Origin: Rhodococcus sp. Leaf278
GTDB lineage: Bacteria; Actinomycetota; Actinomycetes; Mycobacteriales; Mycobacteriaceae
Reading direction: 5' to 3'
NCBI RefSeq assembly: GCF_001426085.1
Contig: NZ_LMRR01000045.1
Span: 170,737 to 234,736 of the forward strand
Length of the DNA stretch: 64,000 nucleotides
Every line of letters starts with the position of its first letter. The stretch's first letter is position 1. This document shows positions 14,942-34,339 of this stretch, one piece after another. The position numbers were made by a program, and so were the translations under genes. The notes under the pieces are model-generated. The model was given only the letters and a program-made list of their open reading frames with translations. It had not been told where the DNA came from and searched no databases.

Positions 14942-14948
14942 TATCTCC

Positions 14949-14954: not shown

Positions 14955-14991
14955 GCGACCGATTGCACTATGAGCACTTACCTACGCAGAC

Positions 14992-15440: not shown

Positions 15441-15480
15441 GCGATGTCCTCCTTCGATATCGGTGCGTGCGAACGGGTCT

Positions 15481-16758
15481 CTAGGAGAGGACCTTTGCCA
15501 CAGCACTTTCGATGATGTCCAGGCCGCGATCGAGTTCGTCGATCGTCGTGGTCAACGGGGGAAGAAGCTTGACGACCTCGTCCTTGGGGCCTGCGGTCTC
15601 GACGAGCAGACGCTCGTCGTAGCAGAGCTGTGACACCTTGCCGGCCAGCTCGGCGTCATCGAACGCCAGGGCTTGGACCATGCCGCGACCGCGGGTCGAG
15701 ATGCCGTCGAACTTGGCGCACAGCTTGATGAATCGGTCCTGGATGTGCTCGCCCTTGGCGAGGGTTTCCTTCTCGAACTTGTCGTCGGACCAGTAGTGGT
15801 CGATGGCCGCCTTCGCCGTGACGAACGACGGGTTGAAACCACGGAAGGTGCCGTTGTGCTCACCCGGTGACCAGACGTCCAGTTCGGGCTTGAACAGCGT
15901 CAGCGCCAGAGGCATTCCGTAGCCGCCGATGGACTTGGACAGGGTGACGATGTCCGGGGTGATGCCGGCTTCCTCGAACGAGAAGAACTGGCCGGTGCGG
16001 CCGCAGCCCATCTGCACGTCGTCGACGATCAGGAGGATCTCACGTCGCGAGCACAGTTCTGCCAACGCGCGCAACCACTCCGGACGCGCGACGTTGATGC
16101 CACCCTCGCCCTGGATGGTCTCCACGATCACCGCGGCCGGGCGGTTGAATCCGCTGCCCGAGTCGTCGAGTACACGCTCGAACCACTGGAAGTCCTCGGT
16201 GACGCCGCCGAAGTAGTTGTCGTACGGCATCGGAGTGGTGTGCACCAGCGGGATTCCTGCGCCAGCTCGCTTCATCGAGTTGCCGGTGACCGACAACGCG
16301 CCGAGTGTCATGCCGTGGAATGCGTTGGTGAAGTTGATGATTGCTTCGCGGCCGGTCACCTTGCGGGCGAGCTTGAGTGCCGCTTCGACTGTGTTGGCAC
16401 CCGTCGGTCCGGGGAACTGGACCTTGTAGTCCAAACCGCGGGGATCGAGGATGTTCTTCTTGAACGACTCGAGGAACTCCCGCTTCGCCACGGTCGACAT
16501 GTCGAGCCCATGGGTGATGCCGTCGCTGGTGATGTAGTCGACCAACGCGCTCTTGATCATGTCGTTGTTGTGGCCGTAGTTGAGTGCTCCTGCGCCACCG
16601 AAGAAGTCGAGGTAGTCGTTGCCGTTCTCGTCGGTGATCACCGAGTTCTTCGCGGTGGTGAACACGGCGGGCCACTGGCGGCTGTAGCTACGTACGCCGG
16701 ACTCGACGGTCTCGAAGACATCGGGCTTCTCTGTTGTCACGGTGTTCTTTTCGGTCAT
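15481..16758 (-). CDS. ectB: Diaminobutyrate-2-oxoglutarate transaminase (EctB), in frame with EctA
   Basis: PLP class III aminotransferase converting aspartate semialdehyde to 2,4-diaminobutyrate, the first ectoine step. The 425 residues from ATG 16758 are the normal EctB length (DVFETVESGVRSYSRQWP; LIVDDVQMGCGRTG; PLP lysine in TLSKSIGGYG). There is no stop codon between this start and the upstream EctA frame, so EctB can be made as the C-terminal half of an EctA-EctB protein or separately from ATG 16758. The nearest Shine-Dalgarno (GAAAGG) lies 12 nt before that ATG, a rather long spacing. Confidence 0.93.
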   Translation of the reverse strand: MTEKNTVTTEKPDVFETVESGVRSYSRQWPAVFTTAKNSVITDENGNDYLDFFGGAGALNYGHNNDMIKSALVDYITSDGITHGLDMSTVAKREFLESFKKNILDPRGLDYKVQFPGPTGANTVEAALKLARKVTGREAIINFTNAFHGMTLGALSVTGNSMKRAGAGIPLVHTTPMPYDNYFGGVTEDFQWFERVLDDSGSGFNRPAAVIVETIQGEGGINVARPEWLRALAELCSRREILLIVDDVQMGCGRTGQFFSFEEAGITPDIVTLSKSIGGYGMPLALTLFKPELDVWSPGEHNGTFRGFNPSFVTAKAAIDHYWSDDKFEKETLAKGEHIQDRFIKLCAKFDGISTRGRGMVQALAFDDAELAGKVSQLCYDERLLVETAGPKDEVVKLLPPLTTTIDELDRGLDIIESAVAKVLS

Positions 16759-17307
16759 GTTCTGCTTGTTCCTTTCGTAATTCCGCGATGCGTCGGGGCC
16801 TACTGTGTAGAGCTCTTCGGCTTCGTGGCTATCAGGGAAATCGTTGGGCGCGAACAAATCCGACTTGACGATGTCGGTGCCTCGCTTACGTGCGAGGCCG
16901 GTGAAGGTTGCGATGGACGCTTCGTTGTCCGGGCTGATCGTCGTTTCCAGATGCGTGATGCCCTGTGGTTCGAGGCGGTCGAGCAGCTCCATCAGCATGC
17001 GACCGGCAAGTCCCTTGCCACGCTGGTCCGCATCCACGGCGACCTGCCACACGAACAGTGTGCGCGGGGCGTCTTGGCGGATGTATCCGGTGACGAAACC
17101 GACTGCGCGGCCGTCGATGTCGGATACGACAGTGGTGGCCGCGAAATCACGGCACCACAACACGTACGAGTAACTGGAATTGAGATCCAGAACTCGCGAA
17201 TCTCTTGCGATCTCCCAGAGCCGGACTCCGTCGGAAATCTGTGGCTTACGAAACTTCACTGCGTCCGGCGCAGTGAGCGGGGTACCTCTCAGCAATGCGG
17301 GCTTCAT
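16759..17307 (-). CDS. ectA: Diaminobutyrate acetyltransferase (EctA), without stop codon, running into EctB
   Basis: GNAT acetyltransferase that N-gamma-acetylates diaminobutyrate. From ATG 17307 it reads MKPALLRGTPL, then the EctA core (FRKPQISDGVRLWEIARDS, LDLNSSYSYVLWCRDFAATT) and the acetyl-CoA loop (QRGKGLAGRML). The domain ends near HEAEELYTV. About 14 further codons (GPDASRNYERNKQN) then lead in frame into the EctB methionine with no stop. I checked these codons individually. An ATG at 17379 and a start at 17421 are possible but would add a non-family N-terminus. No clear ribosome-binding site precedes 17307. Confidence 0.88.
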
Positions 17308-17482
17308 AGGAAATACGAACGTAACAAGGTCGCCGTGGCATATCGACTGCCCCGGGAAATCGACCCCGAAATCGGACATGCTTTCCCAGGTTAACCGCCG
17401 AATGTGATGATGCTCACACAATCGGTGCCCGGTAGGCGGTACCCAGAAAAGCGCGGTACAAACCTCGACTCGCCGAGTATCT

Positions 17483-21464: not shown

Positions 21465-21489
21465 TACTAATTGCAGATTGTTGACAATC
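21465..21489 (+). promoter_or_regulatory. GntR operator and promoter of the first catabolic operon
   Basis: GATTGTTGACAATC at 21476-21489 has perfect 6-nt inverted arms (GATTGT/ACAATC) with a 2-nt centre, the form bound by FadR-type GntR regulators. A -10-like TACTAAT begins at 21465, so the palindrome covers the expected transcription start. The same palindrome occurs at 27947-27960 before the ectoine hydrolase gene. Confidence 0.7.
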
Positions 21490-21507
21490 GGAAACGCGTG
21501 CGTGACG

Positions 21508-22782
21508 ATGGCTGACATGACAGCGTCGACTCGTACCCACCTCAGCCCGGCACTCAAGCAGGCGACCCCGATCGTCGTCGATCACGGAAAGGGCAGCTGG
21601 ATCATCGGTACGGACGGGCGCAAGTACCTCGACTTCACCACGGGAATCGGTGTCACCAGCACCGGACACTGCCATCCGCGCGTGGTGGAGGCCGCGCGCG
21701 AGCAGGTGGGCAAGATCATCCATGCGCAGTACACGACCGTCATGCACCAACCGCTACTGGAGTTGACCGACAAGCTCGGCGAGGTATTGCCGGCCGGGCT
21801 CGACAGCGTGTTCTACGCCAACTCCGGCTCCGAGGCCGTCGAGGCGTCGATTAGATTGGCGCGCATGGCAACCGGGCGGCCCAACATCATCGCCTTCCAT
21901 GGGGGATTTCACGGACGCACGGTGGCGGCCGCATCGTTGACCACCGCTGGAACTAAATTCCGCTCCGGTTTCTCGCCGATCATGGGCGGAGTGCACATCG
22001 CGCCGTTCCCGTACGCGTTTCGGTACGGCTGGGACATCGAGACCGCAGTGGCCTTCGCGCTCAAGGAACTCGACTACCTGTTGATGACGATGTCGAGCCC
22101 CGCCGACACCGCCGCGTTCATCATCGAACCGGTTCTCGGTGACGGTGGTTACCTGCCCACGCCGCCGGAATTCCTCGAGGGACTGCGCGAACGCGCCGAC
22201 ACCCACGGCATCGTCCTCATCGTCGACGAGGTGCAAGCAGGTGTGGGGCGTACCGGAAAGTTCTGGGGGCACCAGCACTCGTCGATCACGCCGGACATCG
22301 TCATCACCGCAAAAGGGCTCGCCAGCGGATTTCCGATCTCTGCGATCGCGGCATCGACCGAGCTGATGAGCAAGGCGTGGCCGGGTTCTCAGGGCGGAAC
22401 CTACGGTGGCAATGCCGTCGCCGCCGCGGCCGGCGTCGCCACCCTCGACGTCGTGCGCGACGAGGGTCTCGTCGCCAATGCAGCCGTGCAGGGCAAGGTT
22501 CTGCTCGACGGCCTGCTCGCACTGAAGGCAGAGCACTCGGCCATCGGTGACGCACGTGGACTCGGCCTGATGCAGGCGCTCGAATTCGTCGACAGTGCGG
22601 GCAATCCCGATGCTGCGGCCGCCCTCCGTGTGCAGCAGGGCGCGATCGACGAGGGGCTGTTGCTGCTCACCTGCGGTGCGCTCGGCAACGTGGTCCGGAT
22701 CATTCCCGCGCTGATCGTGAACGACGACGAGATGCGGCAGGGTATCGACGCGCTGTCGCGAACGCTGAAGAACGTGCTGTGA
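21508..22782 (+). CDS. Class III PLP aminotransferase, candidate diaminobutyrate/4-aminobutyrate aminotransferase (DoeD role)
   Basis: Fold-type I class III enzyme of about 425 residues: DFTTGIGVTSTGHCHPRV, YANSGSEAVEASIRLAR, FHGGFHGRT, LIVDEVQAGVGRTGKFW and the PLP lysine (Lys269) in VITAKGLASGFP. The family transfers omega-amino groups. In this operon it is the best candidate to turn 2,4-diaminobutyrate into aspartate semialdehyde, the substrate of the aldehyde dehydrogenase two genes on. Starts at GTG 21502, ATG 21508 or ATG 21517 are possible. Its stop overlaps the next start (GTGA). The substrate is inferred from context; GABA is the main alternative. Confidence 0.85.
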   Translation: MADMTASTRTHLSPALKQATPIVVDHGKGSWIIGTDGRKYLDFTTGIGVTSTGHCHPRVVEAAREQVGKIIHAQYTTVMHQPLLELTDKLGEVLPAGLDSVFYANSGSEAVEASIRLARMATGRPNIIAFHGGFHGRTVAAASLTTAGTKFRSGFSPIMGGVHIAPFPYAFRYGWDIETAVAFALKELDYLLMTMSSPADTAAFIIEPVLGDGGYLPTPPEFLEGLRERADTHGIVLIVDEVQAGVGRTGKFWGHQHSSITPDIVITAKGLASGFPISAIAASTELMSKAWPGSQGGTYGGNAVAAAAGVATLDVVRDEGLVANAAVQGKVLLDGLLALKAEHSAIGDARGLGLMQALEFVDSAGNPDAAAALRVQQGAIDEGLLLLTCGALGNVVRIIPALIVNDDEMRQGIDALSRTLKNVL

Positions 22783-25691
22783 CGTCTGCGCCCATCCGAT
22801 CCGATGTCCCCGCACTCGTGCATCGAGTGCGGGAGACGGGGATCGATATCGACGACTCGTCTCGGCGCGTGGCCGAGTATTCCTACGACGCCTCCAACTA
22901 CCGAATTCCGCCTGCAGCGGTCGTGTTCCCTCGCAACGCCGACGAGGTGTCCACCGTGGTGTCCCTGTGCTCCGAGGCCGGAGTCGCTGTGATCGGCCGC
23001 GGCGGCGGAACGTCGATGGCGGGCAACGCCATCGGCCGCGGAATCGTGCTCGACTTCTCCCGTCACATGAATCGGGTGATCTCGGTCGACACGGATTCAC
23101 GGACCGCCGTCGTGGAACCGGGCATCGTGATATCGGAGTTGCAGCGTGAGCTCGTGGCACGCACGTCGGGGGCCTTCACATTTGCCCCCGACCCGTCCAG
23201 TAAGACACGCGCCACGGTCGGCGGGGCTGTCGGCAACGACGCATGCGGTAACCACTCGGTTCGCTACGGTCGTACCTCGGACCACACGGTGGCTATGGAC
23301 GTGGTGACAGCCGAGGGGCATCTATTGCGGATCACCCGCAGTGGCGTGTCGGCCGTCCATGCCGACGACGCGGCCGCAGGCATTGCGGCCGAACGTATTT
23401 CGCGCGAGCTACAGTCTCTGGCGTCCGACAATCTCGCTCTCTTCAGAGTAGAGCTGGGGCGCATTCCGCGGCAGGTCTCCGGGTTTCATCTGTCGCATCT
23501 ACTGCCCGAGAACGGGTTCGACGTCGCGCGTGCACTCGTCGGCAGCGAAGGCACCTGTGCGGTGATCGTCTCGGTCACCGTCACAGTCGTGCCCGTACCG
23601 CCCGCCGCGTTGCTGCTCTGCCTCGGCTACCAGGACGTGGTCGCAGCTGCCGCCGACGTCATGGCGATTCTGGAATTTTCGCCGGCCGCGGTGGAGGGGA
23701 TCGACGACAACATCGCGCGGACGATGGAGTACCGGCGCGGGCCGGACTCCGTGCGCGGCTTGCCGGCAGGAAATGCCTGGCTGTACGTCGATCTCGACGG
23801 GGCCGACGCGGCCGAGGTGGAGGACAAGGCAGCCCGATTGCTCGAGGAGCTCGGCAGGCTCGGACGATTGAAGGAAGGTCGCGTCGTCACCGACCCGGCC
23901 GATCGAACAGCGCTGTGGCGGGTACGCGAGGACGGAGCCGGCCTGGCCACTCGCCTGGCGAGCGGAGTCGAGTCCTGGGGCGGGTGGGAGGACGCCGCCG
24001 TGGCACCGGAAAACTTGTCGGCGTATCTCGCCGACCTGAATTCGCTTCTGGCCGAGCACGAATTGACCGGAGTGATGTACGGACACTTCGGTGCCGGTTG
24101 CATGCACGTACGCATCACATTCGATCAACGCACCGACGCCGGGCGCCGGGTGATGTACGACTTCCTGCGTGCCGCAGCGCGGGTCGTCGTCAAGCACGGC
24201 GGCAGCCTCTCGGGCGAACATGGCGACGGTCGGGCACGCTCGGAACTTCTGCCGGTGATGTACTCGCCGCGCATGCTCGACGCGTTCGCGCGGTTCAAGC
24301 GCATCTGGGACCCCACCGGCATTCTCAACCCGGGATCGATCACCGAGCCCGAGCCGATGATGGACAACCTGATGCTGCAGGGTATTCCGCAGCGCGAATG
24401 GAAGACGACGTTCGATCTGCACCAGATCGGAACGCGGGAGGATCTGGATCCTTTCGTTCACGCCACCCAATCGTGTGTCGGTGTCGGCAAGTGCCGCACC
24501 ACCTCCGGAGGCGTCATGTGCCCGAGCTTCCGCGCGACAGGTGACGAGAAGGATTCCACTCGTGGCCGCGCCCGGGTACTGCAGGAGATGGTGCGCAGCT
24601 CGCCGACCGTCGCCGATGGATGGGCCTCGAAGGACGTCGCAGAATCACTGGACCTGTGCCTGTCGTGCAAGGCCTGCTCGTCGGACTGCCCGGTCGGAGT
24701 GGACATGGCAACGTACAAGTCCGAGTTCCTCGATCATCACTACGCGGGGCGACTGCGGCCGCTGTCGCACTATTCGCTCGGTTGGTTGCCCCGCTGGCTG
24801 AAGGTGACGCAGCGAACGGCACCGCTGCTCAACCGTCTGCTCACCCCGCGCATCGCGGCTCTGGCGGCTCGACTCGGTGGGCTGACCACCGAGCGGCCTT
24901 TGCCGCGCTTCGCGTCGGCAAAGGAACTGGCTCACGAAATACGGATCGGCGGAAGCCGCGCCGCTGACGTGGTGTTGGTCGTCGACACGTTCACACAGGG
25001 ATTTCGCCCTGAGGTCGCAGGTGCGGCGCAGCGCGTGCTCGAGGATTCCGGCCGCAGCACCGAATGTCGTACCGACGTGTGTTGTGGTCTGACCTGGATT
25101 TCGACGGGTCAGTTGAAGGCCGCCCGCAAGCACCTCACGAAAGCCGTTGCTGCGCTCGACGACGGTACCGATCGGCCGATCGTCGTCACCGAACCGAGTT
25201 GCGCGGCGGCATTCCGTAAGGACATGCCCGAGTTGGTACCGACGGCTGCCGCGAAAAGGGTTGCGGCGCGGGTACAGAGCTTCGCGGGAGCGGTGATCGA
25301 TCAGGCCGCGGCGGGGTGGGTGCCCTCGGCCGAAGTTCCTGCGTCGGTGACGGTCCAGACCCACTGCCACGAATACGCCGTGTTCGGCAACGCGACCCAA
25401 CGCAACGCTCTGGCCTCCGTCGGTGTCGAGGCAGTGCGGGAAGCCACCGGATGCTGCGGAGTGGCAGGCAATTTCGGCTTCGAGAGAAGTCACTACGAGC
25501 TCAGTATGAAGGTCGCCGAACAGGCTCTCGCACCGGCTGTTCGTGCCACCGAGCCCGACGATCCGATTCTGACTGACGGATTCAGCTGCCACATGCAGGT
25601 GCGACAACTCACCGGTGAGCTGACCGGTGATGCGTCCGTGCACCTGGCTCAGATACTCGATCCACGTTCAACGAAAGGACCGCGGCAATGA
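22779..25691 (+). CDS. FAD-binding and (Fe-S)-binding D-2-hydroxyacid dehydrogenase-like protein
   Basis: A 970-residue fusion. An N-terminal PCMH FAD domain (IPPAAVVFPRNADEVSTVVS; GRGGGTSMAGNAIG; DPSSKTRATVGGAVGNDACGNHS) is followed by a FAD-oxidase C domain ending GSLSGEHGDGRARSELLP. Two 4Fe-4S cysteine clusters begin at Cys566 (CVGVGKC) and Cys627 (CLSCKACSSDCPVG), and two CCG motifs close the protein (DVCCGLTWIS; GCCGVAGNFGFE). This is the layout of YdiJ-type D-2-hydroxyglutarate or D-lactate dehydrogenases, which pass electrons to quinone. It is translationally coupled on both sides (GTGA before, ATGA after). Known ectoine pathways do not need such an enzyme, so its substrate here is open. 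Confidence 0.88.
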   Translation: MTSAPIRSDVPALVHRVRETGIDIDDSSRRVAEYSYDASNYRIPPAAVVFPRNADEVSTVVSLCSEAGVAVIGRGGGTSMAGNAIGRGIVLDFSRHMNRVISVDTDSRTAVVEPGIVISELQRELVARTSGAFTFAPDPSSKTRATVGGAVGNDACGNHSVRYGRTSDHTVAMDVVTAEGHLLRITRSGVSAVHADDAAAGIAAERISRELQSLASDNLALFRVELGRIPRQVSGFHLSHLLPENGFDVARALVGSEGTCAVIVSVTVTVVPVPPAALLLCLGYQDVVAAAADVMAILEFSPAAVEGIDDNIARTMEYRRGPDSVRGLPAGNAWLYVDLDGADAAEVEDKAARLLEELGRLGRLKEGRVVTDPADRTALWRVREDGAGLATRLASGVESWGGWEDAAVAPENLSAYLADLNSLLAEHELTGVMYGHFGAGCMHVRITFDQRTDAGRRVMYDFLRAAARVVVKHGGSLSGEHGDGRARSELLPVMYSPRMLDAFARFKRIWDPTGILNPGSITEPEPMMDNLMLQGIPQREWKTTFDLHQIGTREDLDPFVHATQSCVGVGKCRTTSGGVMCPSFRATGDEKDSTRGRARVLQEMVRSSPTVADGWASKDVAESLDLCLSCKACSSDCPVGVDMATYKSEFLDHHYAGRLRPLSHYSLGWLPRWLKVTQRTAPLLNRLLTPRIAALAARLGGLTTERPLPRFASAKELAHEIRIGGSRAADVVLVVDTFTQGFRPEVAGAAQRVLEDSGRSTECRTDVCCGLTWISTGQLKAARKHLTKAVAALDDGTDRPIVVTEPSCAAAFRKDMPELVPTAAAKRVAARVQSFAGAVIDQAAAGWVPSAEVPASVTVQTHCHEYAVFGNATQRNALASVGVEAVREATGCCGVAGNFGFERSHYELSMKVAEQALAPAVRATEPDDPILTDGFSCHMQVRQLTGELTGDASVHLAQILDPRSTKGPRQ

Positions 25692-27151
25692 CGACCAGCC
25701 TCACTCGACCTTCCATCACGGCCCCCACCGACCTGTTCATCGGAGGTGCCTGGACAGCCGCAGCCTCGGCTGCCCGGTTCGATGTGATCGACCCCGCCAC
25801 CGGTGACGTGATCGCCACGGTGGCCGACGGTGGCATCGCCGAAGCCGAGGATGCGATGGCTGCGGCGGTCGATGCCGCTGCGGAGTGGGCCGCCACTGCG
25901 CCCCGTGCACGCAGTGAAATCTTGCGTAAGGCCTACGAATTGATCATGGCGCGGTCGGAGGAACTCGCCGCGATCATCACCGCGGAAATGGGGAAACCGC
26001 TGGCCGATGCACGTGGTGAGGTGGCGTACGGCGCGGAGTTCTTCCGGTGGTTCTCCGAGGAGGCCGTGCGTATCTCGGGTGATCACACCCTCACCGGAGA
26101 CGGCAAGAACCGCATCGTGGTCACTCGTGCACCGGTGGGACCGTGCATCCTCGTCACCCCGTGGAACTTCCCGCTGGCCATGGGGACTCGGAAGATCGGC
26201 CCGGCGTTGGCGGCAGGCTGCACCGTGGTGTTCAAGCCGGCCGAGCAGACGCCGCTGACAGCGCTGGCGCTGGCGGGGATCCTGCACGACGCGGGTGTCC
26301 CGGCGGGCGTCGTCAACGTCGTGACCACCACCGATGCGGCGGGTGTCGTGGGCACCTGGATGAGCAGCGGTGCGGCCCGCAAGATCAGCTTCACCGGATC
26401 GACTGCGGTGGGCAAAATTCTGCTCGAGCAAGCTGCATCGACGGTGATGCGCACCTCGATGGAGCTCGGCGGCAACGCACCCTTCATCGTCATGGACGAC
26501 GCAGATCTCTCACGCGCCGTGGACGGAGCAATGGTTGCGAAGATGCGCAACATGGGCGAGGCCTGCACCGCAGCCAATCGATTCTTCGTACACCGCAGTG
26601 TCGCAGCACAGTTCGCGGACACGCTCGCCGAGCGCATGGGTGCGTTGACAGTGGGGGCAGGCAGTGCACACGGCACGCAGGTGGGGCCGCTGATCGACGA
26701 CGCGGGTCGCTCGAAGGTGCAGAGACTCGTCGACGACGCCCTCGGTCGTGGCGCGCGTGCGATCGTCGGGGGAGCGGCACCGGACGGGCCCGGCTATTTC
26801 TACCCGCCGACAGTGCTCACGGACGTCGACTCGAACTCGGATCTGATGTCGCAGGAAATCTTCGGGCCGGTGGCGGCGATCGTGCCGTTCGACACCGAGG
26901 ACGAGGTGATCGCCCTCGCGAACGACACCGAATGGGGACTTGTCGGATACATCTTCACTCAGGACATCGATCGGGCGCTACGGATGGGGGAGAGGCTCGA
27001 GGTGGGCATGGCCGGTCTCAACACCGGTCTGGTCTCCAACCCGGCGGCACCGTTCGGTGGCGTCAAACAGTCCGGACTCGGCCGCGAGGGCGGAAGAGTC
27101 GGAATAGACGAATTCCTGGAGTACAAATACTTTGCCATTCCCCGAGGCTGA
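25688..27151 (+). CDS. NAD(P)-dependent aldehyde dehydrogenase (succinate/aspartate semialdehyde type, DoeC role)
   Basis: A 487-residue aldehyde dehydrogenase with the cofactor motif PWNFPLAMGTRKIGPALAAG, FTGSTAVGK, general base in MELGGNAPFIV and catalytic Cys293 in GEACTAANRF. The C-terminal GGVKQSGLGREGG is typical of succinate-semialdehyde dehydrogenases, the subgroup that also includes ectoine-pathway DoeC. In context it would oxidise aspartate semialdehyde to aspartate. The ATG overlaps the upstream stop codon (ATGA). The GntR gene follows 13 nt after its stop. Confidence 0.88.
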   Translation: MTTSLTRPSITAPTDLFIGGAWTAAASAARFDVIDPATGDVIATVADGGIAEAEDAMAAAVDAAAEWAATAPRARSEILRKAYELIMARSEELAAIITAEMGKPLADARGEVAYGAEFFRWFSEEAVRISGDHTLTGDGKNRIVVTRAPVGPCILVTPWNFPLAMGTRKIGPALAAGCTVVFKPAEQTPLTALALAGILHDAGVPAGVVNVVTTTDAAGVVGTWMSSGAARKISFTGSTAVGKILLEQAASTVMRTSMELGGNAPFIVMDDADLSRAVDGAMVAKMRNMGEACTAANRFFVHRSVAAQFADTLAERMGALTVGAGSAHGTQVGPLIDDAGRSKVQRLVDDALGRGARAIVGGAAPDGPGYFYPPTVLTDVDSNSDLMSQEIFGPVAAIVPFDTEDEVIALANDTEWGLVGYIFTQDIDRALRMGERLEVGMAGLNTGLVSNPAAPFGGVKQSGLGREGGRVGIDEFLEYKYFAIPRG

Positions 27152-27164
27152 GAGGCTTTCGATC

Positions 27165-27878
27165 ATGCCCAGTTCGAGAAGACTGACGCCCATCGACGCA
27201 CGCAACACGTCGATGGTGATTGCCGACCAGATTCGCGATCGCATCATCGATGGCTCCTATGCCCCGGGGGAGCAGATCAACGAAGCCAACGTTGCGGCCG
27301 AACTCGAAATTTCTCGGGGGCCGGTGCGTGAGGCACTGCAGCGTCTCAATCAAGAGGGTTTGCTGGTCAGCTACCGCAACCGGGGCGTGTTCGTCGTCGA
27401 ACTGAGCAGTGACGACGTCACCGAGATCTACGAGTCCCGTGCGGCGATCGAGGTCGGTGCTGCGTGGACGTTGGTCCACGGTGATCGCGACCGGCTGATC
27501 ACCGCCGCCGACGAGCTCTCGGCCATCGTGATGCAGATGCAACCGTTCATCGATCGGGCGGACTGGCGAGGTCTGGCCGAACGAGACCTCGCATTTCATA
27601 CCGCCCTGGTCGCAGCGACGCGCAACAGCCGCATGTCACGGATGTACGCCACCCTCGCCGCGGAGGCGCGTATCTGTATGGCCAACCTCGAAACCGCGTA
27701 CTACCGGCCCGAGGCGTTGGTGGAGGAACATCAACTGATCGTCGATCTTCTTCTCGGATCCGATTGGGACGCACTGGAAAAGGGCGTACACGAGCACATG
27801 GACACCGCCATCCACGACTTGACCCGGGCGATGGTGGAGGAGCATGCCGAACACTCGGCTCTGGCCACTCCGGGATAG
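27165..27878 (+). CDS. GntR-family (FadR/FCD subgroup) transcriptional regulator
   Basis: A 237-residue regulator with an N-terminal winged helix (IADQIRDRIIDGSYAPGEQINEANVAAELEISRGPVREALQRL) and an all-helical FCD effector domain with likely metal ligands (DLAFHTALV, EEHQLIV, HMDTAIHDL). It starts at ATG 27165 with GAGAGG 9 nt upstream; the frame is open to 27132 but without a better start. It is the last gene of the first catabolic operon, so it would autoregulate through the operator at 21476 and also control the second operon at 27947. This differs from the MocR-type EnuR regulator described for proteobacterial ectoine catabolism. Confidence 0.9.
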   Translation: MPSSRRLTPIDARNTSMVIADQIRDRIIDGSYAPGEQINEANVAAELEISRGPVREALQRLNQEGLLVSYRNRGVFVVELSSDDVTEIYESRAAIEVGAAWTLVHGDRDRLITAADELSAIVMQMQPFIDRADWRGLAERDLAFHTALVAATRNSRMSRMYATLAAEARICMANLETAYYRPEALVEEHQLIVDLLLGSDWDALEKGVHEHMDTAIHDLTRAMVEEHAEHSALATPG

Positions 27879-27916
27879 ACCGCTCGGCGCGCAACACAGC
27901 ATTTACATCTGAAGTC

Positions 27917-27960
27917 TTGCGTACCTCTGGCGTCAGCGCCTAGCCTGATTGTCAACAATC
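27917..27960 (+). promoter_or_regulatory. Promoter and GntR operator of the ectoine-hydrolase operon
   Basis: TTGCGT (27917-27922) and TAGCCT (27941-27946) are spaced 18 nt apart as -35 and -10. The operator GATTGTCAACAATC (27947-27960) follows directly and overlaps the expected start site. It has the same 6-nt arms as the site at 21476, with the centre reversed (CA instead of TG). The placement fits repression by the GntR protein. Confidence 0.72.
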
Positions 27961-27985
27961 TACTAAATCTCCATCATCGAAGGGG

Positions 27986-29281
27986 GTGCCCGTGAACGAC
28001 TCATCAGACTCCGCCTACGTCACCGCAATCGGACCCGAAGACACCGATGGACCGGCCGCTCCCGGTCTGGCGCGGTACCCCGATGTACCGAACAGCACGC
28101 CGATCACGTTCACCGACGAGGAGTACGCCGCTCGGCTCGCTGCAGTCCGAGAGCGGATGGCAGCGCAGAACCTCACGGCGCTCATAGTCACCGATCCCGC
28201 GAACCTCTATTACCTGCTCGGCTACAACGCGCTCTCGTTCTACACCCCGCAAATGCTGTACGTCCCGCTTGAGGGCGACATGTATTTCTTCGCCCGCGAA
28301 ATGGACGCCAACGGCGCGTTTCGCACGTCGTGGCTGCCGCAGGATCGGACGTTCGGCTACCCCGAAACGTTCGTGCAGCGCAGGGACACTCACCCGTTCG
28401 TATGGGTTGCTGCGAAGCTGCGCGAACTGGGACTGGTGAACAACTTCGAGCACGGCCAGGTGGGTCTGGAAATGGACTCGTACTATTTCAGTCCCAAGGC
28501 ATTCGAGGCTCTGGTGAAGTCGCTGCCCGAATACCGATTCACCGACTCTTACGAGCTCATCAACTGGGTGCGAGTGGTCAAGTCACCCGCGGAGATTGCC
28601 CTGATGCGCGGTGCTGCACAGGTGTGTGAATCGGCGATGTCGGCTGCCTACCAGGCTATCTCGGTGGGTGAGCGGCAGTGCGACGCGGCCGCGGCCATCA
28701 TGAACGCACAGGTACGGGGCACTGCGGACTTCGGCGGCGATCATCCTGCCATCGTGCCGATGCTGCCCACCGGTGCCGGCGCAGACACCCCGCACCTGAC
28801 GTGGTCGCATCAACCCTTCGTGCGGGGCGAGACCACCGTTGTCGAACTGGCCGGAGTGTTTCGGCGCTACCACATTCCGATGGCACGCACGATTGTGCTC
28901 GGAAAGCCAAGTCCACGTTTGGATTACCTTGCCAAGTCCACCGGGGAAGCATTGAACGACGTGCTCGCAACCGTGCAGGCAGGCGTCACTGCCACGGAGC
29001 TGGCGCAGGTGTGGAACACCAGCCTGGCCAAGCACGGACTGCACAAACCGTCACGCATCGGTTACTCGATCGGCATCGCCTACGCACCCGACTGGGGTGA
29101 GCGCACCGTGAGCCTGCGAACCGACGACGAGACGGTGCTCGCCGCGAACATGACGTTCCACATCATCGGCGGAATGTGGATGGACGACTACGGATACGAG
29201 GTATCCGAGGCCGTTCGCGTCACCGAGACCGGCCTCGAAACCTTCACCGCGTACCCCCGAGAACTACTGACGAAGGAGTGA
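27986..29281 (+). CDS. doeA: Ectoine hydrolase-like M24-family protein (DoeA/EutD)
   Basis: Opens the ectoine ring to acetyl-diaminobutyrate. The 431 residues match, from memory, DoeA throughout: FTDEEYAARLAAVRERM, LYYLLGYNALSFYT, MDANGAFRTSWL, GYPETFVQRRDTHPF, GLEMDSYYFSPKAFEAL, GTADFGGDHPAIVPMLPTG, APDWGERTVSLR, MTFHIIGGMWMDDYGYEVSE. The metal-binding Asp pair of M24 aminopeptidases is absent (VVELAGVFRRYHIPMART), as in creatinase-type, metal-free members. GTG 27986 or 27992 follows AGGGGG. A generic Xaa-Pro peptidase or DddP-type lyase is less likely given these motifs. Confidence 0.85.
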   Translation: MPVNDSSDSAYVTAIGPEDTDGPAAPGLARYPDVPNSTPITFTDEEYAARLAAVRERMAAQNLTALIVTDPANLYYLLGYNALSFYTPQMLYVPLEGDMYFFAREMDANGAFRTSWLPQDRTFGYPETFVQRRDTHPFVWVAAKLRELGLVNNFEHGQVGLEMDSYYFSPKAFEALVKSLPEYRFTDSYELINWVRVVKSPAEIALMRGAAQVCESAMSAAYQAISVGERQCDAAAAIMNAQVRGTADFGGDHPAIVPMLPTGAGADTPHLTWSHQPFVRGETTVVELAGVFRRYHIPMARTIVLGKPSPRLDYLAKSTGEALNDVLATVQAGVTATELAQVWNTSLAKHGLHKPSRIGYSIGIAYAPDWGERTVSLRTDDETVLAANMTFHIIGGMWMDDYGYEVSEAVRVTETGLETFTAYPRELLTKE

Positions 29282-29283
29282 GC

Positions 29284-30579
29284 ATGACCGCATCTACTCG
29301 AGGTCGTTCCGCAGGCTCCACTCCTGCCACCCAAGGTCGTTCCGCAGGCTCCACTCCTGCCAGCATTCCCTGGGCCCTGCGAACCGACAAGCTGGTGGGA
29401 TCGGTGATCGATTCGTCGACATCGCTCCTCGCTGCGCAGAAACACGACATCGTGCGCTTCGCGATGGGATCTCCTGCCGCCGAGACGGTTCCGGCTGCTG
29501 CGTTCACCGAGATCGCCGGCAGCGTGCTCACCGCGGACGCATTCGATTACGGTGCCACCGAGGGTGACCCGGGCCTGCTCGACGCGTTGCTCGCGTACCT
29601 GGAGTCGGTGGGCGAGCCCACGTCCGAAGAGCGAGTGGTGATCACGTCGGGCGGGATGCAAGGCCTCGACATCGCGTGCAAGTTGTTCGTCGATCCGGGC
29701 GACCTGGTGATCGTCGAAAGCCCCACGTACACCAACGGAACCGCCACCGTACTCAGTTACGGGGGCGACATCCTCGAGGCCCCGATGGACAGTAACGGTC
29801 TCATCGTCGAGGCATTGCCCGAGCTCGTCGAGCGCGCCGGGCGGTTGCCGAAGATGATCTACGTGATCCCCAACTTCCAGAACCCGTCCGGGGTGACCCT
29901 GTCGCTCGAGCGTCGTCAGCTGCTCATCGAGCTGGCGCACAAGTGGGGATCGGTGATCCTCGACGACGATCCCTACGGTCTGCTCCGATTCTCGGGTGAG
30001 TCGATCCCCAGTTTCGGCACACTCAGTCCCGACGATCCGTTGATCTTCTCCGTACGCACGTTCTCGAAGATGATCGCGCCCGGCCTACGGGTGGGTTGGG
30101 TGGACGCCGCCCCCGAGGCGCGGCAGCTGATCGTCAACGCCAAGCAGGCCATGGACACGTGCACGAACCTGCCGGCCCAGCGGATGGTGGCCGAGTACAT
30201 CCGGCGCGGACTGCTCGACGAGCATCTTCGGTCGTTGGCCTCGGTGTATCTGCCACGCAAGATCGCGATGCAGAACAGCATCGACAAACACTTCGGCGAT
30301 TCGATGTCGACGACCGACCCCGAGGGTGGGTTCTTTCTCTGGGCGACGCTGCGTGGCAACGATGTCGATTTCTCTACTCAGGACTTGTTCGAGACGGCGC
30401 TGGCAGAAGGAGTGGCCTACATTCCGGGACCGGCATTGTCTGTGGGCGGAAAATTTCACGATTCGTTGCGGCTGTGCTTCGCCTCGTCGACTCCCGAACG
30501 TATCGACGAGGGAATCAGGAGACTTGCGGTGGCAGTGGAGAAGTCCAAGCACCTGCTCGCCTCCGACCCGACTCGATGA
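29284..30579 (+). CDS. PLP-dependent class I/II aminotransferase with repeat-derived N-terminus
   Basis: A 431-residue fold-type I enzyme related to 2-aminoadipate and MocR-domain aminotransferases: FAMGSPAAETVP, SGGMQGLDIACKLF, IPNFQNPSGVT, DDDPYGLLRFSG and the PLP lysine Lys262 in TFSKMIAPGLRVGW. It has no DNA-binding domain. It starts at ATG 29284, 2 nt after doeA, with GGAG 6 nt upstream. Residues 7-26 consist of two 11-residue repeats (GRSAGSTPA-x2) made by a tandem DNA repeat and look like a foreign insert before SIPWALRTDKL. It could transaminate diaminobutyrate, aspartate or a hydroxylated derivative; the substrate is unknown. Confidence 0.85.
   Translation: MTASTRGRSAGSTPATQGRSAGSTPASIPWALRTDKLVGSVIDSSTSLLAAQKHDIVRFAMGSPAAETVPAAAFTEIAGSVLTADAFDYGATEGDPGLLDALLAYLESVGEPTSEERVVITSGGMQGLDIACKLFVDPGDLVIVESPTYTNGTATVLSYGGDILEAPMDSNGLIVEALPELVERAGRLPKMIYVIPNFQNPSGVTLSLERRQLLIELAHKWGSVILDDDPYGLLRFSGESIPSFGTLSPDDPLIFSVRTFSKMIAPGLRVGWVDAAPEARQLIVNAKQAMDTCTNLPAQRMVAEYIRRGLLDEHLRSLASVYLPRKIAMQNSIDKHFGDSMSTTDPEGGFFLWATLRGNDVDFSTQDLFETALAEGVAYIPGPALSVGGKFHDSLRLCFASSTPERIDEGIRRLAVAVEKSKHLLASDPTR
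29302..29361 (+). repeat. Tandem pair of the dispersed repeat inside the aminotransferase gene
   Basis: Two identical 27-nt copies (GGTCGTTCCGCAGGCT, then CCACTCCTGCC) start at 29302 and 29335, a period of 33 nt. They keep the reading frame and encode GRSAGSTPA twice. Other copies lie at 19651, 31573, 31606 and 34724. Confidence 0.85.
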
Positions 30580-31838
30580 CGGTCACGAGTTCCGAACGTG
30601 CCCTTCTGGATTCGATCGATGAGTCGGACATCATCGGTTTGACAACCGCTTTGATCGATGCGGGCGGTGAGAATCCCGGGAATACCGAGGAGAAGACCGC
30701 AAAAGTCCTTGCCGAACACTGTCGCGCACTGGGTTTCGATGTTCGGACGGTCGAGGTCGCTCCTGGTCGGCCCAATGTTTTCGTGTCCATCGGATCCGAC
30801 GAGCGGCCCGGGGCGCTGTTCGTGGGCCATTCCGACGTGGTCCCCGCTGGTACGGGCTGGACCGCCGATCCCTTTTCCGCCGTGGTTCGGGACGGCCGCA
30901 TCGTCGGCCGCGGGTCCTGCGACATGAAGGGCGGCCTGGCCGCGGTGGTGGCGGCCATGACCGCTGTGCTGCGTTCCGGTCTCGCGGACGAGTACCCCAT
31001 GACGTTGGCGTGCCTGGTCGACGAGGAGGACACCGGACTCGGTATCCGAGCGTTCGTCGCCGAACCGCAGCACCGCACGTACAGCTGTTGCGTGGTGGCG
31101 GAGCCAACGGATCTGGTCACCATCTACGGATGCCGAGGAGCAGCGAACCTGGAGATCGAGGTTCGGGGCCGATCCGCGCACGCGGGGCAACCGCGCAACG
31201 GCGCAAACGCCATCTCGGCCGCAGCACGCATCATCGACATTATCGAGGGCTCCCAGGCCGAGCTCGACGCGAACCCCGACCCCGAACTGGGGCCGGCCAC
31301 CTGGAATGTGGGGACGATAGCGGGAGGTACGGGCACGTCGATGGTCGCCGACCGGTGTGTCGTCACGGTCGACCGCCGTCTCCTACCGGGCGAGAGCGCC
31401 GCGGGCGTCGTCGGCGATCTACGATCACGCATCGAATCAGCGGGACTCATCGGGTCCGGTATCGATGTCGAGATCGGTATCTCGATGGAGATGCCGGGCT
31501 TTCTGACCAGCATCGACGACGGATTGGTCACTACCGCAGTGCAATCGGTCATCGACAACGGATCCATAACGAATGGTCATTCCGCAGGCTGCAATCCTGT
31601 GCTCGATGGTCATTCCGCAGGCTCCAATCCTGTGCGTTTCACTGACATCTGGACCGCATCGTGCGATGGTGGTTTTGTGGCACAGCAGATGGGAATACCC
31701 ACCGTCGTGCTCGGTCCGGGGGAGATCGAAAAACAGGCGCATCGACCGGACGAGTCCGTGGCCGTGCGGCAATTGACCGACAGCGCAAGGGCGTACGCGT
31801 TGATCGCCACCAGAATTGCTGCACTACCAGGACTTTAG
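30576..31838 (+). CDS. M20-family (ArgE/DapE) deacetylase, candidate N-acetyl-diaminobutyrate deacetylase
   Basis: A 420-residue zinc amidohydrolase. Metal ligands are His85 (GHSDVVPAG), Asp in GRGSCDMKGG and the Glu pair in LVDEEDTG; the dimerisation domain begins near GRSAHAGQPRNGANA. The family deacylates N-acetyl-ornithine and similar amino acids, so acetyl-diaminobutyrate released by DoeA is a natural substrate here. Known DoeB/EutE belong to the unrelated AstE/AspA family, so this would be a replacement. The ATG overlaps the preceding stop codon (ATGA). Residues about 333-353 (two GHSAGxNPV units) come from a DNA repeat inserted just before the active-site segment RFTDIWTASCDGGF. Confidence 0.84.
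   Translation: MTVTSSERALLDSIDESDIIGLTTALIDAGGENPGNTEEKTAKVLAEHCRALGFDVRTVEVAPGRPNVFVSIGSDERPGALFVGHSDVVPAGTGWTADPFSAVVRDGRIVGRGSCDMKGGLAAVVAAMTAVLRSGLADEYPMTLACLVDEEDTGLGIRAFVAEPQHRTYSCCVVAEPTDLVTIYGCRGAANLEIEVRGRSAHAGQPRNGANAISAAARIIDIIEGSQAELDANPDPELGPATWNVGTIAGGTGTSMVADRCVVTVDRRLLPGESAAGVVGDLRSRIESAGLIGSGIDVEIGISMEMPGFLTSIDDGLVTTAVQSVIDNGSITNGHSAGCNPVLDGHSAGSNPVRFTDIWTASCDGGFVAQQMGIPTVVLGPGEIEKQAHRPDESVAVRQLTDSARAYALIATRIAALPGL
31573..31635 (+). repeat. Tandem pair of the dispersed repeat inside the M20 gene
   Basis: Two copies start at 31573 and 31606 (period 33 nt), each ATGGTCATTCCGCAGGCT followed by (G/C)CAATCCTGTGC. They differ from each other at one base and from the 29302 pair at a few positions. 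The insertion is in frame and encodes GHSAGCNPVLD and GHSAGSNPVRF. Confidence 0.85.
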
Positions 31839-31952
31839 CGCTGCACGAGGGGGTTGGCCGAACCGTACGTTCTGCATCGCCGTAATGTCGAATGCTGCGA
31901 AGTACCACACCGACGCTCCACTTTGTCCACAAAAGCGAGAGGTATTTCGACC

Positions 31953-33380
31953 GTGACCGAAAATTCAGGGTCGGCAGCATCGCCGACCGGATATCCCCCC
32001 AGTACCGACACCCTGAGCCCGGACGAGACCAAAATTCTCCACCGCGCCATCGGCGGATCGGCACTCGGCAACGCAGTCGAGTGGTTCGATTACGCGGTGT
32101 ACGGCTATCTCGCCGTCTACATTGCCGCCAATTTCTTCCCGTCCGAGGACGGGGGAGCGAGCCTGCTCTCCACCTTCGCCGTGCTGGCCGCGTCGTTCAT
32201 CATTCGTCCCATCGGCGGTATCGTGCTCGGCCCACTCGGCGACCGCATCGGTCGCCAGAAGGTCCTCGTACTGACCGTCTCGATGATGACGTTGGCCACG
32301 GCGGCGATCGGTGTGCTGCCGACATTCGACACCATCGGCATCGCCGCACCGTTGCTGCTGCTCGTCTGCCGTTTGGTGCAGGGCTTCTCCACCGGTGGTG
32401 AATACGGCGGCGCAGCAGTGTTCATGGCCGAGTACGCACCCGACAAGCGCCGCGGATTCTTCGGATCGTTCCTCGAATTCGGTACCCTCGCAGGCACCGT
32501 GGGCGGTGCCACCCTGTGCACCCTGCTCAACGTCGGTCTCGGCGACGAGACCATGGAGGCCTGGGGCTGGCGAATTCCATTCCTGGTGACACTGCCGTTG
32601 GGCATCGTTGCGCTGTGGCTGCGGACCCGGCTGGAAGATTCTCCGGTGTTCGCCGAAGCGAAGGAAGAGGGAGGCACGGTCGACGAGGGGGCAGGCGGAG
32701 CCGTCACCTCACTCAAGGCCACCATGACGTACTGGCAGCGGATCCTGATCCTGATGGGATTCGTGCTACTGCTCAACATCGCTTACTACACGGTGCTGAC
32801 GTTCTTGCCCTCGTACCTGAGCGACACGTTGGGGCACAGCACTACTCAGTCCAACTTCACCCTCGTGGCCATCATGATCATCATGATGTTGATCATCAAC
32901 CCCATCGGCGCTCTGTCCGACCGGGTGGGTCGAAAGCCGTTGCTTCTGGTCGCCTGCGTGGGGTACTTCGTCTTCAGCGTTCCGCTGTTCCTGTTGATCA
33001 TCAACACCGGTCTGATCGGCCAGAGCATCGGCTTGCTCGGTCTCGGAGTGTTGCTGGTCATCATGTGCTCCTGCGTGTCGTCGACACTGCCCGCACTGTT
33101 CCCCACTCAGGTGCGCTACGGGGCGTTCGCAATCGGATACAACGTGTCGACAGCGCTCTTCGGTGGCACGGCGCCGCTGATCCTGACGTTCCTGATCGAC
33201 CGAACCGGTTCCAACCTGGTCCCGGGTTGGTACATGATGATCGCCGCCGCCATCGCGTTCGTTCCGATCCTGTTGATGCCCGAGACGGCAGGACGATCAC
33301 TACGCGGAACCCAGTGCCCAGGTGACAACGACGACGAGGTTGCCGCATCCGGCGTCGAACTCGTCGGCTACAAGAAGTAG
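31953..33380 (+). CDS. ProP-like MFS transporter of the metabolite:H+ symporter family
   Basis: A 475-residue protein with twelve hydrophobic segments. It shows strong ProP/MHS signatures: GGSALGNAVEWFDYAVYGYLAVYI, IRPIGGIVLGPLGDRIGRQK, CRLVQGFSTGGEYGGAAVFMAEYAP, KRRGFFGSFLEFG and GWRIPFLVTLPLGIVALWLR. ProP proteins import proline, betaine and ectoine with protons. The C-terminus lacks the osmosensing coiled coil of E. coli ProP, which suits a nutrient-uptake role. GTG 31953 is chosen because GAGAGG lies 10 nt upstream and the frame before it is not family-like. It follows the M20 gene after 114 nt. Confidence 0.9.
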   Translation: MTENSGSAASPTGYPPSTDTLSPDETKILHRAIGGSALGNAVEWFDYAVYGYLAVYIAANFFPSEDGGASLLSTFAVLAASFIIRPIGGIVLGPLGDRIGRQKVLVLTVSMMTLATAAIGVLPTFDTIGIAAPLLLLVCRLVQGFSTGGEYGGAAVFMAEYAPDKRRGFFGSFLEFGTLAGTVGGATLCTLLNVGLGDETMEAWGWRIPFLVTLPLGIVALWLRTRLEDSPVFAEAKEEGGTVDEGAGGAVTSLKATMTYWQRILILMGFVLLLNIAYYTVLTFLPSYLSDTLGHSTTQSNFTLVAIMIIMMLIINPIGALSDRVGRKPLLLVACVGYFVFSVPLFLLIINTGLIGQSIGLLGLGVLLVIMCSCVSSTLPALFPTQVRYGAFAIGYNVSTALFGGTAPLILTFLIDRTGSNLVPGWYMMIAAAIAFVPILLMPETAGRSLRGTQCPGDNDDEVAASGVELVGYKK

Positions 33381-33382
33381 TA

Positions 33383-34339
33383 GTGGCACCGACTCTCGTC
33401 GTTCTGCATGCCGGCGACCTTCCCGACGGACTCGAGTCCGTCGAGGAGGTCGCCGTTGTCAGATATGCCACGGCGGACACGCTTGCGGATGCAGTCGACG
33501 GTGCCGACGCGTTGCTGCTCTGGGATTTCTTCTCACCTGCAGTCCGATCCGCCTGGCCGCGGTGCGGTTCGTTGAAGTGGATCCACATCGCCGCTGCCGG
33601 CGTGGACTCGTTGATGTTCGACGAGTTGGTGGAATCCGATGTGGTCGTGACCAATTCGCGGGGCGTATTCGATCGCCCGATCGCAGAATTCGTACTGGCT
33701 CAGATCCTCGCGTTCGCCAAGGATTCCGAACGCTCACGTGCACTGCAGCATTCGAAGATTTGGCAACACCGCGAGACCGAACGCATCGACGGCGCGCACG
33801 CGATGATCGTGGGCACCGGAGCGATCGGTCGTGCCATTGCAACTCTGCTGAGTGCGGTGGGGATGTCGGTCTCGGGCGTGGGTCGAACTGCACGAGAAGG
33901 CGACCGAGATTTCGGCACCGTGTACGCCAGTGATGATCTGGCGGACCAGGTAGCGCGGGTCGACTATCTGGTTCTGGTTGCCCCGTTGACCGAACAGACG
34001 AGGGGTCTGGTCGACGATTCGGTGTTGGCCGCGATGAAGCCCGGCGCGCGGGTGATCAACGTGGGCCGCGGTGAGCTGCTCGATACCGAGGCACTGCTGA
34101 AGCATCTCGGCACCGGCCACATTGCCGGTGCCGCGCTGGACGTGTTCGAGACCGAGCCGCTCTCGGCCGACCATCCGTTGTGGACGACCGAGAACGTGAT
34201 TCTCACGCCGCACATGAGCGGCGACGCGTCGGGGTGGAAGCAGCAACTCGCAAAGGTGTTCGCCGACAACGCGCGTCGATACTTTCGGGGCGAACCCTTG
34301 ATCAACGTCGTGGACAAGAAGTTGGGATTCGTGGCGTGA
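33383..34339 (+). CDS. NAD-dependent D-2-hydroxyacid dehydrogenase
   Basis: A 318-residue protein with the Rossmann motif GTGAIGRAIATLL (about residues 143-155) and the catalytic triad of the family: Arg in NVGRGELLD, Glu in DVFETEPLS and His in LTPHMSGDASG. It reduces 2-oxoacids to D-2-hydroxyacids or the reverse. It begins 2 nt after the transporter stop codon (GTG start), so it belongs to the same transcript. Together with the FAD/Fe-S dehydrogenase it suggests a 2-hydroxyacid in the pathway, though the identity is unknown. It converges with the flavin oxidoreductase 4 nt downstream. Confidence 0.88.
   Translation: MAPTLVVLHAGDLPDGLESVEEVAVVRYATADTLADAVDGADALLLWDFFSPAVRSAWPRCGSLKWIHIAAAGVDSLMFDELVESDVVVTNSRGVFDRPIAEFVLAQILAFAKDSERSRALQHSKIWQHRETERIDGAHAMIVGTGAIGRAIATLLSAVGMSVSGVGRTAREGDRDFGTVYASDDLADQVARVDYLVLVAPLTEQTRGLVDDSVLAAMKPGARVINVGRGELLDTEALLKHLGTGHIAGAALDVFETEPLSADHPLWTTENVILTPHMSGDASGWKQQLAKVFADNARRYFRGEPLINVVDKKLGFVA

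Follow-up and report, generated by a model that had tools for sequence, protein, structure and literature searches.

A predicted ectoine-catabolic regulon of Actinomycetota with an M20 deacetylase in the place of DoeB

Can an actinobacterium that carries the genes for ectoine synthesis also degrade ectoine, by which enzymes, and how would the two processes be kept apart? These questions are raised by a locus of Rhodococcus sp. Leaf278 (Rhodococcus/Rhodococcoides clade; 5.7-Mb genome), located at 21.5–34.3 kb on the plus strand of the 64-kb stretch analyzed here (contig NZ_LMRR01000045.1, positions 170,737 to 234,736; hereafter the window). A preliminary description of the same DNA had read it as a variant ectoine-degradation locus next to ectABC, with an M20 enzyme, a ProP-type carrier and a GntR/FCD protein in place of DoeB, the usual importers and EnuR. 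In the known route, as laid out in a 2018 review, ectoine is converted via N-acetyl-diaminobutyrate (ADABA) to diaminobutyrate (DABA), aspartate semialdehyde and aspartate (PMC5924519). We conclude, with a probability of about 0.8, that the locus belongs to an ectoine-catabolic regulon of Actinomycetota in which M20 takes DoeB's place, an estimate that leaves the downstream route aside. At the level of sequence, its gene content, its conservation, a shared palindrome and a linkage to Ehu transport genes in relatives are documented below.

A DoeA-like protein and an M20 deacetylase in two operons

Both operons lie on the plus strand. The first comprises, in order, a class III gamma-aminobutyrate (GABA)-transaminase-like aminotransferase (AT3, 21508..22782), an FAD-linked D-2-hydroxyacid dehydrogenase-like protein (FADox, 22779..25691), a succinate-semialdehyde-dehydrogenase-like enzyme (SSADH, 25688..27151) and a regulator with GntR and FCD domains (27165..27878). 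FADox is an FAD/4Fe-4S protein of 970 aa with a C-terminal FeS/CCG part, of the YdiJ/GlcD-GlcF type. The second operon starts with a DoeA-like M24 protein (27986..29281), directly followed on its 3' side by a class I, LysN/KAT-II-like alpha-aminotransferase (AT1, 29284..30579), and continues with an M20 deacetylase of the ArgE/DapE type (30576..31838), a ProP-like MHS/MFS symporter (31953..33380) and an NAD-type D-2-hydroxyacid dehydrogenase (D2HDH, 33383..34339). Adjacent genes share 4 bp at AT3/FADox (GTGA), FADox/SSADH (ATGA) and AT1/M20 (ATGA). Several start codons reported here are our own choice; that of AT3 was shifted from a TTG at 21478, which falls inside a palindrome, to the ATG at 21508, where translation probably begins unless it does so at 21517. 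Every gene that the preliminary description had placed in two operons 4 kb from ectABC is present as an open frame and was correctly identified; FADox and D2HDH had gone unnamed.

The M24 protein is the proposed ectoine hydrolase of the locus, and DoeA is its nearest relative. A phmmer search of the PDB matched it to the solved Halomonas DoeA (6twj/6twk) with 355 bits over residues 40-430, the next-best match being a prolidase at 78 bits. Its best NCBIfam model was DoeA/EutD (TIGR02993) at 422.9 bits; since the cut-off of 613 was not reached, we call the protein DoeA-like and not DoeA. A quick tree of 30 rows placed 18 actinobacterial sequences in one clade (support of 97 in the approximate likelihood-ratio test, SH-aLRT) and nine proteobacterial DoeA-type sequences in another (93), with the strain's own prolidase-like homologue (L001) far from the DoeA-like protein. 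L001 was the sole M24 protein of the same genome in the tree, as four others gave no tblastn match and were left out. Within these 30 rows, where the branching at the fork joining the two clades is uncertain, the protein groups near DoeA-type proteins and away from L001. Glu287 of the window protein is invariant in 20 aligned sequences and aligns, by hand count, with Glu255 of 6twk (H. elongata DoeA), which we take to be the catalytic glutamate.

No match to DoeB/EutE (AstE/AspA family, TIGR02994) was found in the whole genome at E <= 0.001, and the M20 protein passes the cut-off of TIGR01910 (220.5 bits; cut-off 217.6). Ten loci of other actinobacterial classes (families f16 and f39 of a phylum-wide draw, L213-L222) have DoeA homologues with 38-42% identity, and in nine of them an M20 gene encoding a protein 29-32% identical to the window's lies 3' of the DoeA homologue; EhuB was present in seven and EutB and/or EutC in six. 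In Proteobacteria, M24 and M20 genes share one block with EhuABCD (Mesorhizobium AR02), with EutB/EutC (Rhizobium CB3171) or with EutA (Roseateles XES5). The window M20 gave only short weak matches to the M20 proteins of three Proteobacteria (L176, L177, L180), so the proteobacterial cases speak for functional analogy, not orthology. Because no DoeB match was found in the genome and M20 recurs beside DoeA/M24, Ehu and Eut genes, its predicted role as the acetyl-removing enzyme of the locus is well supported by genomic context, which bears out the earlier proposal that it replaces DoeB.

Two further arrangements deserve mention in their own right. The loci L213-L222, with no AT1, AT3 or D2HDH called nearby, represent a second kind of ectoine locus within the actinobacteria. 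On plasmid pAt1 of Agrobacterium fabrum (L179), an M24 protein 28% identical to the window's stands alongside an M20 protein with 29% identity, and the neighboring genes encode a glyoxylate/hydroxypyruvate reductase, a D-amino-acid transaminase and an ABC importer, possibly a parallel use of 2-oxo acid reduction.

Conservation of the gene set and of a shared palindrome

The distribution of the locus was followed in 301 genomes drawn from the strain's own family, in the phylum-wide draw of 396 genomes and in a scan of named genomes, in which the best 80 of 193 relatives gave the loci L092-L171; some of these are clipped at contig ends, some come from genomes also present in the family draw, and their gene calls are tblastn homologues. 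A DoeA-like gene (E <= 1e-60) was detected in 59 of the 301 family genomes, representing 6 of 31 genera and including 26 of the 30 from the strain's own genus, and in 13 of the 396 phylum-wide genomes, the own genome among them. Genera with the locus include Rhodococcus, Gordonia, Williamsia, Arthrobacter, Pseudarthrobacter, Mobilicoccus, Glaciibacter, Homoserinimonas, Paeniglutamicibacter and Cryobacterium; DoeA-like proteins with 99% identity are found in Rhodococcus sp. IEGM 1381 and in a record named R. ruber IEGM 1391. Across the 80 loci, homologues were called for AT1 in 78, M20 in 75, SSADH and D2HDH in 70 each, AT3 in 68, FADox in 66 and the MFS carrier in 64. Of the 77 loci whose sequence extends more than 3 kb downstream, 73 have DoeA, AT1 and M20 in one contiguous run. 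Chance falls far short of explaining such conservation of the gene set.

In each of the ten genomes checked whole, D2HDH is no more than 20 kb from DoeA; two of these are Gordonia genomes (G294, G129) that had seemed to lack it on the first stretch. In nine Arthrobacter-type loci (L122-L124, L127, L129, L133-L136) the genes fall into two groups, D2HDH-DoeA-AT1-M20 being separate from AT3-FADox-SSADH-MFS. A record titled Kitasatospora arboriphila (L111) carries a Williamsia-type locus, and its assembly is probably mislabelled.

Each operon is preceded by a perfect palindrome, GATTGTNNACAATC. The proposed operator 1 (GATTGTTGACAATC, 21476..21489) lies upstream of AT3 and the proposed operator 2 (GATTGTCAACAATC, 27947..27960) upstream of the DoeA-like gene; the 64-kb window has no other site with at most one mismatch, and the neighborhood of ectABC has none. 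Of the 80 loci (1.56 Mb in all), 76 contain the exact core ATTGTNNACAAT; its 164 occurrences all fall outside the homologous genes, and six control palindromes of similar AT-rich make-up had no occurrence in the same loci. A core site is found in the 260 bp before AT3 in 63 of the 68 loci that have this gene, before D2HDH in 39 of 70, before DoeA in 36 of 80 and before GntR in 10 of 66; in Gordonia and Williamsia, DoeA comes after SSADH within the AT3 block. No copy of the core was found in 0.30 Mb covering 21 M24 loci, which come from Proteobacteria and from further actinobacterial classes. Among 66 stretches of the own genome, chosen for other reasons and in part overlapping the window, it appeared three times, always as the window's 27947 site. 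A consensus for FadR-type operators, TNGTNNNACNA, matched at a single stray site and was dropped in favor of the palindrome, which had been seen by eye.

A GntR/FCD homologue was called in 66 of the 80 loci, and this co-conservation makes the protein a candidate binder of the palindrome. The window regulator consists of GntR and FCD domains only, with no EnuR-type aminotransferase-domain fusion, in keeping with the substitution for EnuR proposed before. Palindrome sites also adjoin an amidase gene and one or two arylmalonate-decarboxylase/EutA-like genes in L127 (14605-19666), L140 (16731-19506) and L092 (16459-18716); in L127 a RidA-like protein is encoded beside such sites as well, and a DUF3830 protein near these extra genes.

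The link to ectoine is provided by relatives. In Glaciibacter (L145) and Homoserinimonas (L151), EhuB and other transporter genes come after the gene block, and the palindrome also stands upstream of EhuB. In Homoserinimonas, EhuB (262 bits, cut-off 191), EhuC (222, cut-off 197), EhuD (238, cut-off 205) and EhuA (358, cut-off 345) all exceed their thresholds; in Glaciibacter, where only EhuB was scanned, it reached 258 bits against 191. An Arthrobacter locus (L127) that also has the MFS carrier encodes EhuA (376 bits, cut-off 345) and EhuC (262, cut-off 197) beside the block, the region upstream of its Ehu genes lying beyond the examined stretch. No Ehu protein was called in the window locus. 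Because the palindrome precedes above-cut-off Ehu genes in two relatives, the regulon is probably tied to ectoine or ectoines, and with the DoeA-like M24 protein this argues for the ectoine-degradation locus of the preliminary description. The ProP-like carrier was not called in L145 and L151, where Ehu genes follow the block, which fits its suggested role as the importer.

The downstream route and its rivals

The remaining enzymes were compared with characterized families. The nearest PDB entries of AT3 are GABA transaminases; its identity to two proteobacterial DoeD-type proteins, one from Leisingera, is 30.3% and 30.7%, and the two groups form separate clades with long branches in a tree, so that AT3 is not an orthologue of proteobacterial DoeD/Atf. 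Two DoeC-type proteins of Proteobacteria share 46-48% identity with SSADH. AT1 is closest in the PDB to LysN/KAT-II-type alpha-aminotransferases, D2HDH to D-2-hydroxyacid dehydrogenases and FADox to D-lactate, glycolate and D-2-hydroxyglutarate dehydrogenases, and the nearest NCBIfam model of FADox is the YdiJ D-2-hydroxyglutarate dehydrogenase (446 bits, cut-off 1350). The carrier reached 428 bits with the ProP model NF007927, below the cut-off of 544, and is therefore termed ProP-like and not ProP. Motifs that we take to contain the catalytic residues are largely kept in 15-18 aligned rows, those of FADox in 15. The idea that AT1 is a relict of the EnuR aminotransferase domain was dropped, since AT1 is nearer to PdxR/YczR-type models (191 and 171 bits) than to EhuR (113 bits).

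A 22-bp dispersed repeat, CNTTCCGCAGGCTCNNNNCCTG, with 65 copies genome-wide at up to one mismatch (none for a reversed-pattern control), lies in the window at 29305-29359, 31578-31632 and 34729-34750, and often forms tandems with a spacing of about 30-37 bp. Within genes it is inserted in frame and varies among strains, from 0 to about 4 copies at the AT1 N-terminus and from 0 to 2 in a loop of M20, and it resembles in-protein mobile palindromic elements.

The four-enzyme canonical scheme has no place for AT1, D2HDH and FADox. Since AT3 is not a DoeD orthologue and the locus holds two conserved enzymes of the D-2-hydroxyacid dehydrogenase type, a different downstream route is plausible. We hypothesize that the GntR/FCD regulator binds the palindrome and that an ectoine-derived inducer would free both operons; ectoine would be imported by the ProP-like carrier, or by Ehu in relatives. 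The DoeA-like protein would open the ectoine ring to ADABA, in this route the gamma isomer, which AT1 would transaminate at the alpha-amino group to 4-acetamido-2-oxobutyrate. D2HDH would reduce this to D-4-acetamido-2-hydroxybutyrate, M20 would remove the acetate to give D-4-amino-2-hydroxybutyrate, AT3 would form D-malate semialdehyde, SSADH would oxidize it to D-malate and FADox would yield oxaloacetate. If true, DABA and aspartate semialdehyde, which are shared with synthesis, would never be formed, and futile cycling would be limited by chemistry as well as by regulation. This 2-hydroxy route, in which all seven enzymes have a place and every substrate is putative, is offered tentatively and at somewhat less than even odds; that it amounts to a new actinobacterial route through a D-2-hydroxy acid and D-malate to oxaloacetate, bypassing DABA and aspartate semialdehyde, is perhaps a shade more tentative still. 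The Arthrobacter-type split into two gene groups matches the two halves of the route and may be taken as a supporting hint.

On plasmids of R. opacus PD630 (L265, L266), homologues of FADox and SSADH (66% and 72% identical in L265) form an overlapping pair with no DoeA nearby; encoded close by are SDR enzymes and a class III aminotransferase that shares just 29% identity with AT3. The proximity of this pair to a distant class III aminotransferase is a second hint in favor of the 2-hydroxy route.

Several observations weigh against the assignment as a whole or against the route within it. Use of ectoine by the locus is predicted from genes alone, and binding of the palindrome by the GntR protein is proposed from co-conservation only. 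The M24 proteins of the window and of three relatives (Gordonia, Arthrobacter, Glaciibacter) score 405-426 bits, all under the 613-bit cut-off of TIGR02993, and two divergent proteobacterial M24 rows (L178, L179) branch at the very fork that joins the actinobacterial and DoeA-type clades, whose branching is therefore uncertain. With up to two mismatches allowed, the window has three palindrome sites against an expectation of 1.2, and three are also reached in 10 of 100 shuffles; with such weak window statistics, the case for the palindrome rests on its conservation. The DoeA-M20 pair recurs in other actinobacterial classes with no AT1, AT3 or D2HDH nearby, so that these three are not obligatory partners of DoeA. 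FADox gave no match in two of the ten whole genomes (G036, G006) and in two others (G128, G227) only a 47-48% homologue far from DoeA; the most reduced locus, that of Gordonia jinhuaensis, retains only D2HDH, DoeA and AT1, and two loci (L148, on a 7.7-kb contig, and L155) carry EhuB and DoeA with none of the other enzymes. The isomer formed by DoeA matters too: Halomonas DoeA is described as giving the alpha and gamma isomers of ADABA in a 2:1 ratio (PMC5924519), and an alpha-only product, as reported for Methylotuvimicrobium DoeA, would not fit the 2-hydroxy route (PMC7192451).

A serious rival to the 2-hydroxy route, quite possible though on balance doubtful, is the canonical chemistry carried out by substitute enzymes. 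The DoeA-like protein would then produce alpha-ADABA, M20 DABA, AT3 aspartate semialdehyde and SSADH aspartate, with AT1 acting as an aspartate or broad alpha-transaminase and D2HDH and FADox as accessories. The enzyme classes match DoeA, DoeB (functionally), DoeD and DoeC, the similarity of SSADH to DoeC-type proteins agrees with such a scheme, and so does the recurrence of DoeA-M20 alone in other classes. M20 enzymes of the ArgE type usually act on alpha-N-acyl amino acids, another point in its favor. It is harder to reconcile with an AT3 that is GABA-transaminase-like and just 30% identical to the Leisingera protein, and it leaves no clear role for D2HDH and AT1, both widespread among the 80 loci and both retained in G. 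jinhuaensis. The preliminary description had tacitly kept the DoeABDC chemistry: its M24 and M20 assignments find support, but the divergence of AT3 from DoeD and the two omitted D-2-hydroxyacid dehydrogenase-type enzymes tell against it.

It is unlikely, in our judgment, that AT1, D2HDH and FADox, along with the amidase and EutA-like proteins of relatives, serve 5-hydroxyectoine or side-product intermediates, or, as a variant, that a promiscuous D2HDH makes D-2-hydroxyglutarate, which FADox removes. Of the 22 loci with EutA-like genes, 17 have the palindrome core in the 260 bp before them, which would suit the former, and the YdiJ affinity of FADox would suit the latter, but no EutB homologue was called in the 80 loci, the palindrome and the gene couplings bind D2HDH and AT1 to the core block, and chemistry at the C3 hydroxyl would not obviously require a D-2-hydroxyacid dehydrogenase. 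A different substrate altogether, such as another cyclic amidine, an N-acetyl diamino acid or a peptide-like compound handled by a DoeA paralogue, seems very improbable, for the missed DoeA cut-off in all four actinobacterial proteins checked and the carriers in which no ectC was found (see below) are set against the palindrome-preceded, above-cut-off Ehu genes adjoining the block, the co-occurrence with ectC in the family and the position next to ectABC in the Rhodococcoides clade.

Relation to ectoine synthesis and to known systems

The synthesis genes lie 4 kb upstream of the catabolic locus on the minus strand. EctA (179 bits, cut-off 120.6) and EctB (640, cut-off 552) are encoded in one open frame (15481..17421) and the ectoine synthase EctC (188 bits, cut-off 128; PF06339 match) at 15042..15506. 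The preliminary description had considered synthesis and degradation side by side to be uncommon; this did not hold in the family, since ectC is present in all 59 DoeA-positive family genomes and in 193 of the 242 DoeA-negative ones (Fisher p 1.5e-5, with kinship ignored and matching done by eye). Of 16 carriers outside the family, 6 gave an ectC match and 10, presumably scavengers, gave none. Close adjacency was seen in the Rhodococcoides clade: in 12 genomes of the own genus with both coordinates, ectC is about 11-14 kb from DoeA, and in three Gordonia genomes (G152, G220, G276) the distance is megabases. Having the palindrome in front of the catabolic operons but not of ectABC would help to keep synthesis and degradation apart.

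The ectA-ectB junction of 60-69 nt contains no stop in 12 of 12 Rhodococcus strains and varies in length only by multiples of three; it also keeps a purine run resembling a ribosome site and an ATG. An EctA-EctB fusion is likely, dual translation being the alternative. Directly 3' of ectC, a gene at 14075-14977 (minus strand) encodes a sirtuin-like NAD-dependent protein deacetylase; it had been considered as ectD and was rejected on its NCBIfam assignment, and no hydroxylase gene is claimed.

With the proteobacterial doeABDC/eutABCDE loci of Halomonas elongata, Ruegeria pomeroyi and Sinorhizobium meliloti, the locus shares a DoeA-type M24 protein, a deacetylase, a class III aminotransferase and an SSADH-like enzyme, together with an importer and a dedicated regulator at one site. 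It differs in that M20 replaces the AstE/AspA-type DoeB, AT3 is non-orthologous to DoeD, AT1, D2HDH and FADox are added, a ProP-like MFS carrier is used in Rhodococcus, GntR/FCD and the ATTGTNNACAAT palindrome stand in place of EnuR/AsnC, and EutB is missing from the calls in the 80 loci. GabT-GabD GABA catabolism employs enzymes of the same superfamilies as AT3 and SSADH; in the locus, however, the pair is split by FADox with the palindrome in front, and the genome has a separate GabT-GabD-like pair elsewhere, whose GabD-like paralogue is 58% identical to SSADH.

The 2018 review restricted ectoine consumers to Proteobacteria (PMC5924519). Since then, Boas Lichty et al. (2026) have presented provisional clusters in Bacillota, Actinomycetota and Archaea, those of Gram-positive bacteria found via EutD and EutB and, by the authors' own account, not comprehensive (PMC13188858). 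Like the present locus, these include a EutD/DoeA homologue in Actinomycetota and Bacillota, and the Bacillaceae described there lack EutE; importers are MFS, BCCT, Ueh or Ehu, and the Bacillales clusters read pucR-eutBCD-atf, abgB-thrA-adh and eutD-msf (PMC13188858). The main text of that paper mentions neither Rhodococcus, Gordonia or Arthrobacter nor GntR; our distinction is drawn from this main text, and the Actinomycetota clusters shown in a figure may overlap with ours (PMC13188858). In the actinobacterium Tsukamurella paurometabola, doeBDAC was reported by Reshetnikov (2020), with a DoeA about 70% identical to that of a methanotroph (PMC7192451). This four-gene set, shared with Methylotuvimicrobium alcaliphilum, is set apart from the present locus by its description, and the methanotroph DoeB is just 22% identical to Halomonas DoeB (PMC7192451). 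Among the best-matching titles and abstracts listed, with most subscription journals outside the search, none described the gene set or the operator.

Together, our results point to an actinobacterial form of a known ectoine catabolism and, within it, possibly a new route. Ectoine is both common as a nitrogen-rich osmolyte and produced industrially, and the coherent, apparently co-regulated version found in Rhodococcus, Gordonia, Williamsia, Arthrobacter and other genera supplies a concrete candidate operator. The suggested chemistry would skip the intermediates shared with synthesis, so that futile cycling becomes testable in strains with both gene sets.

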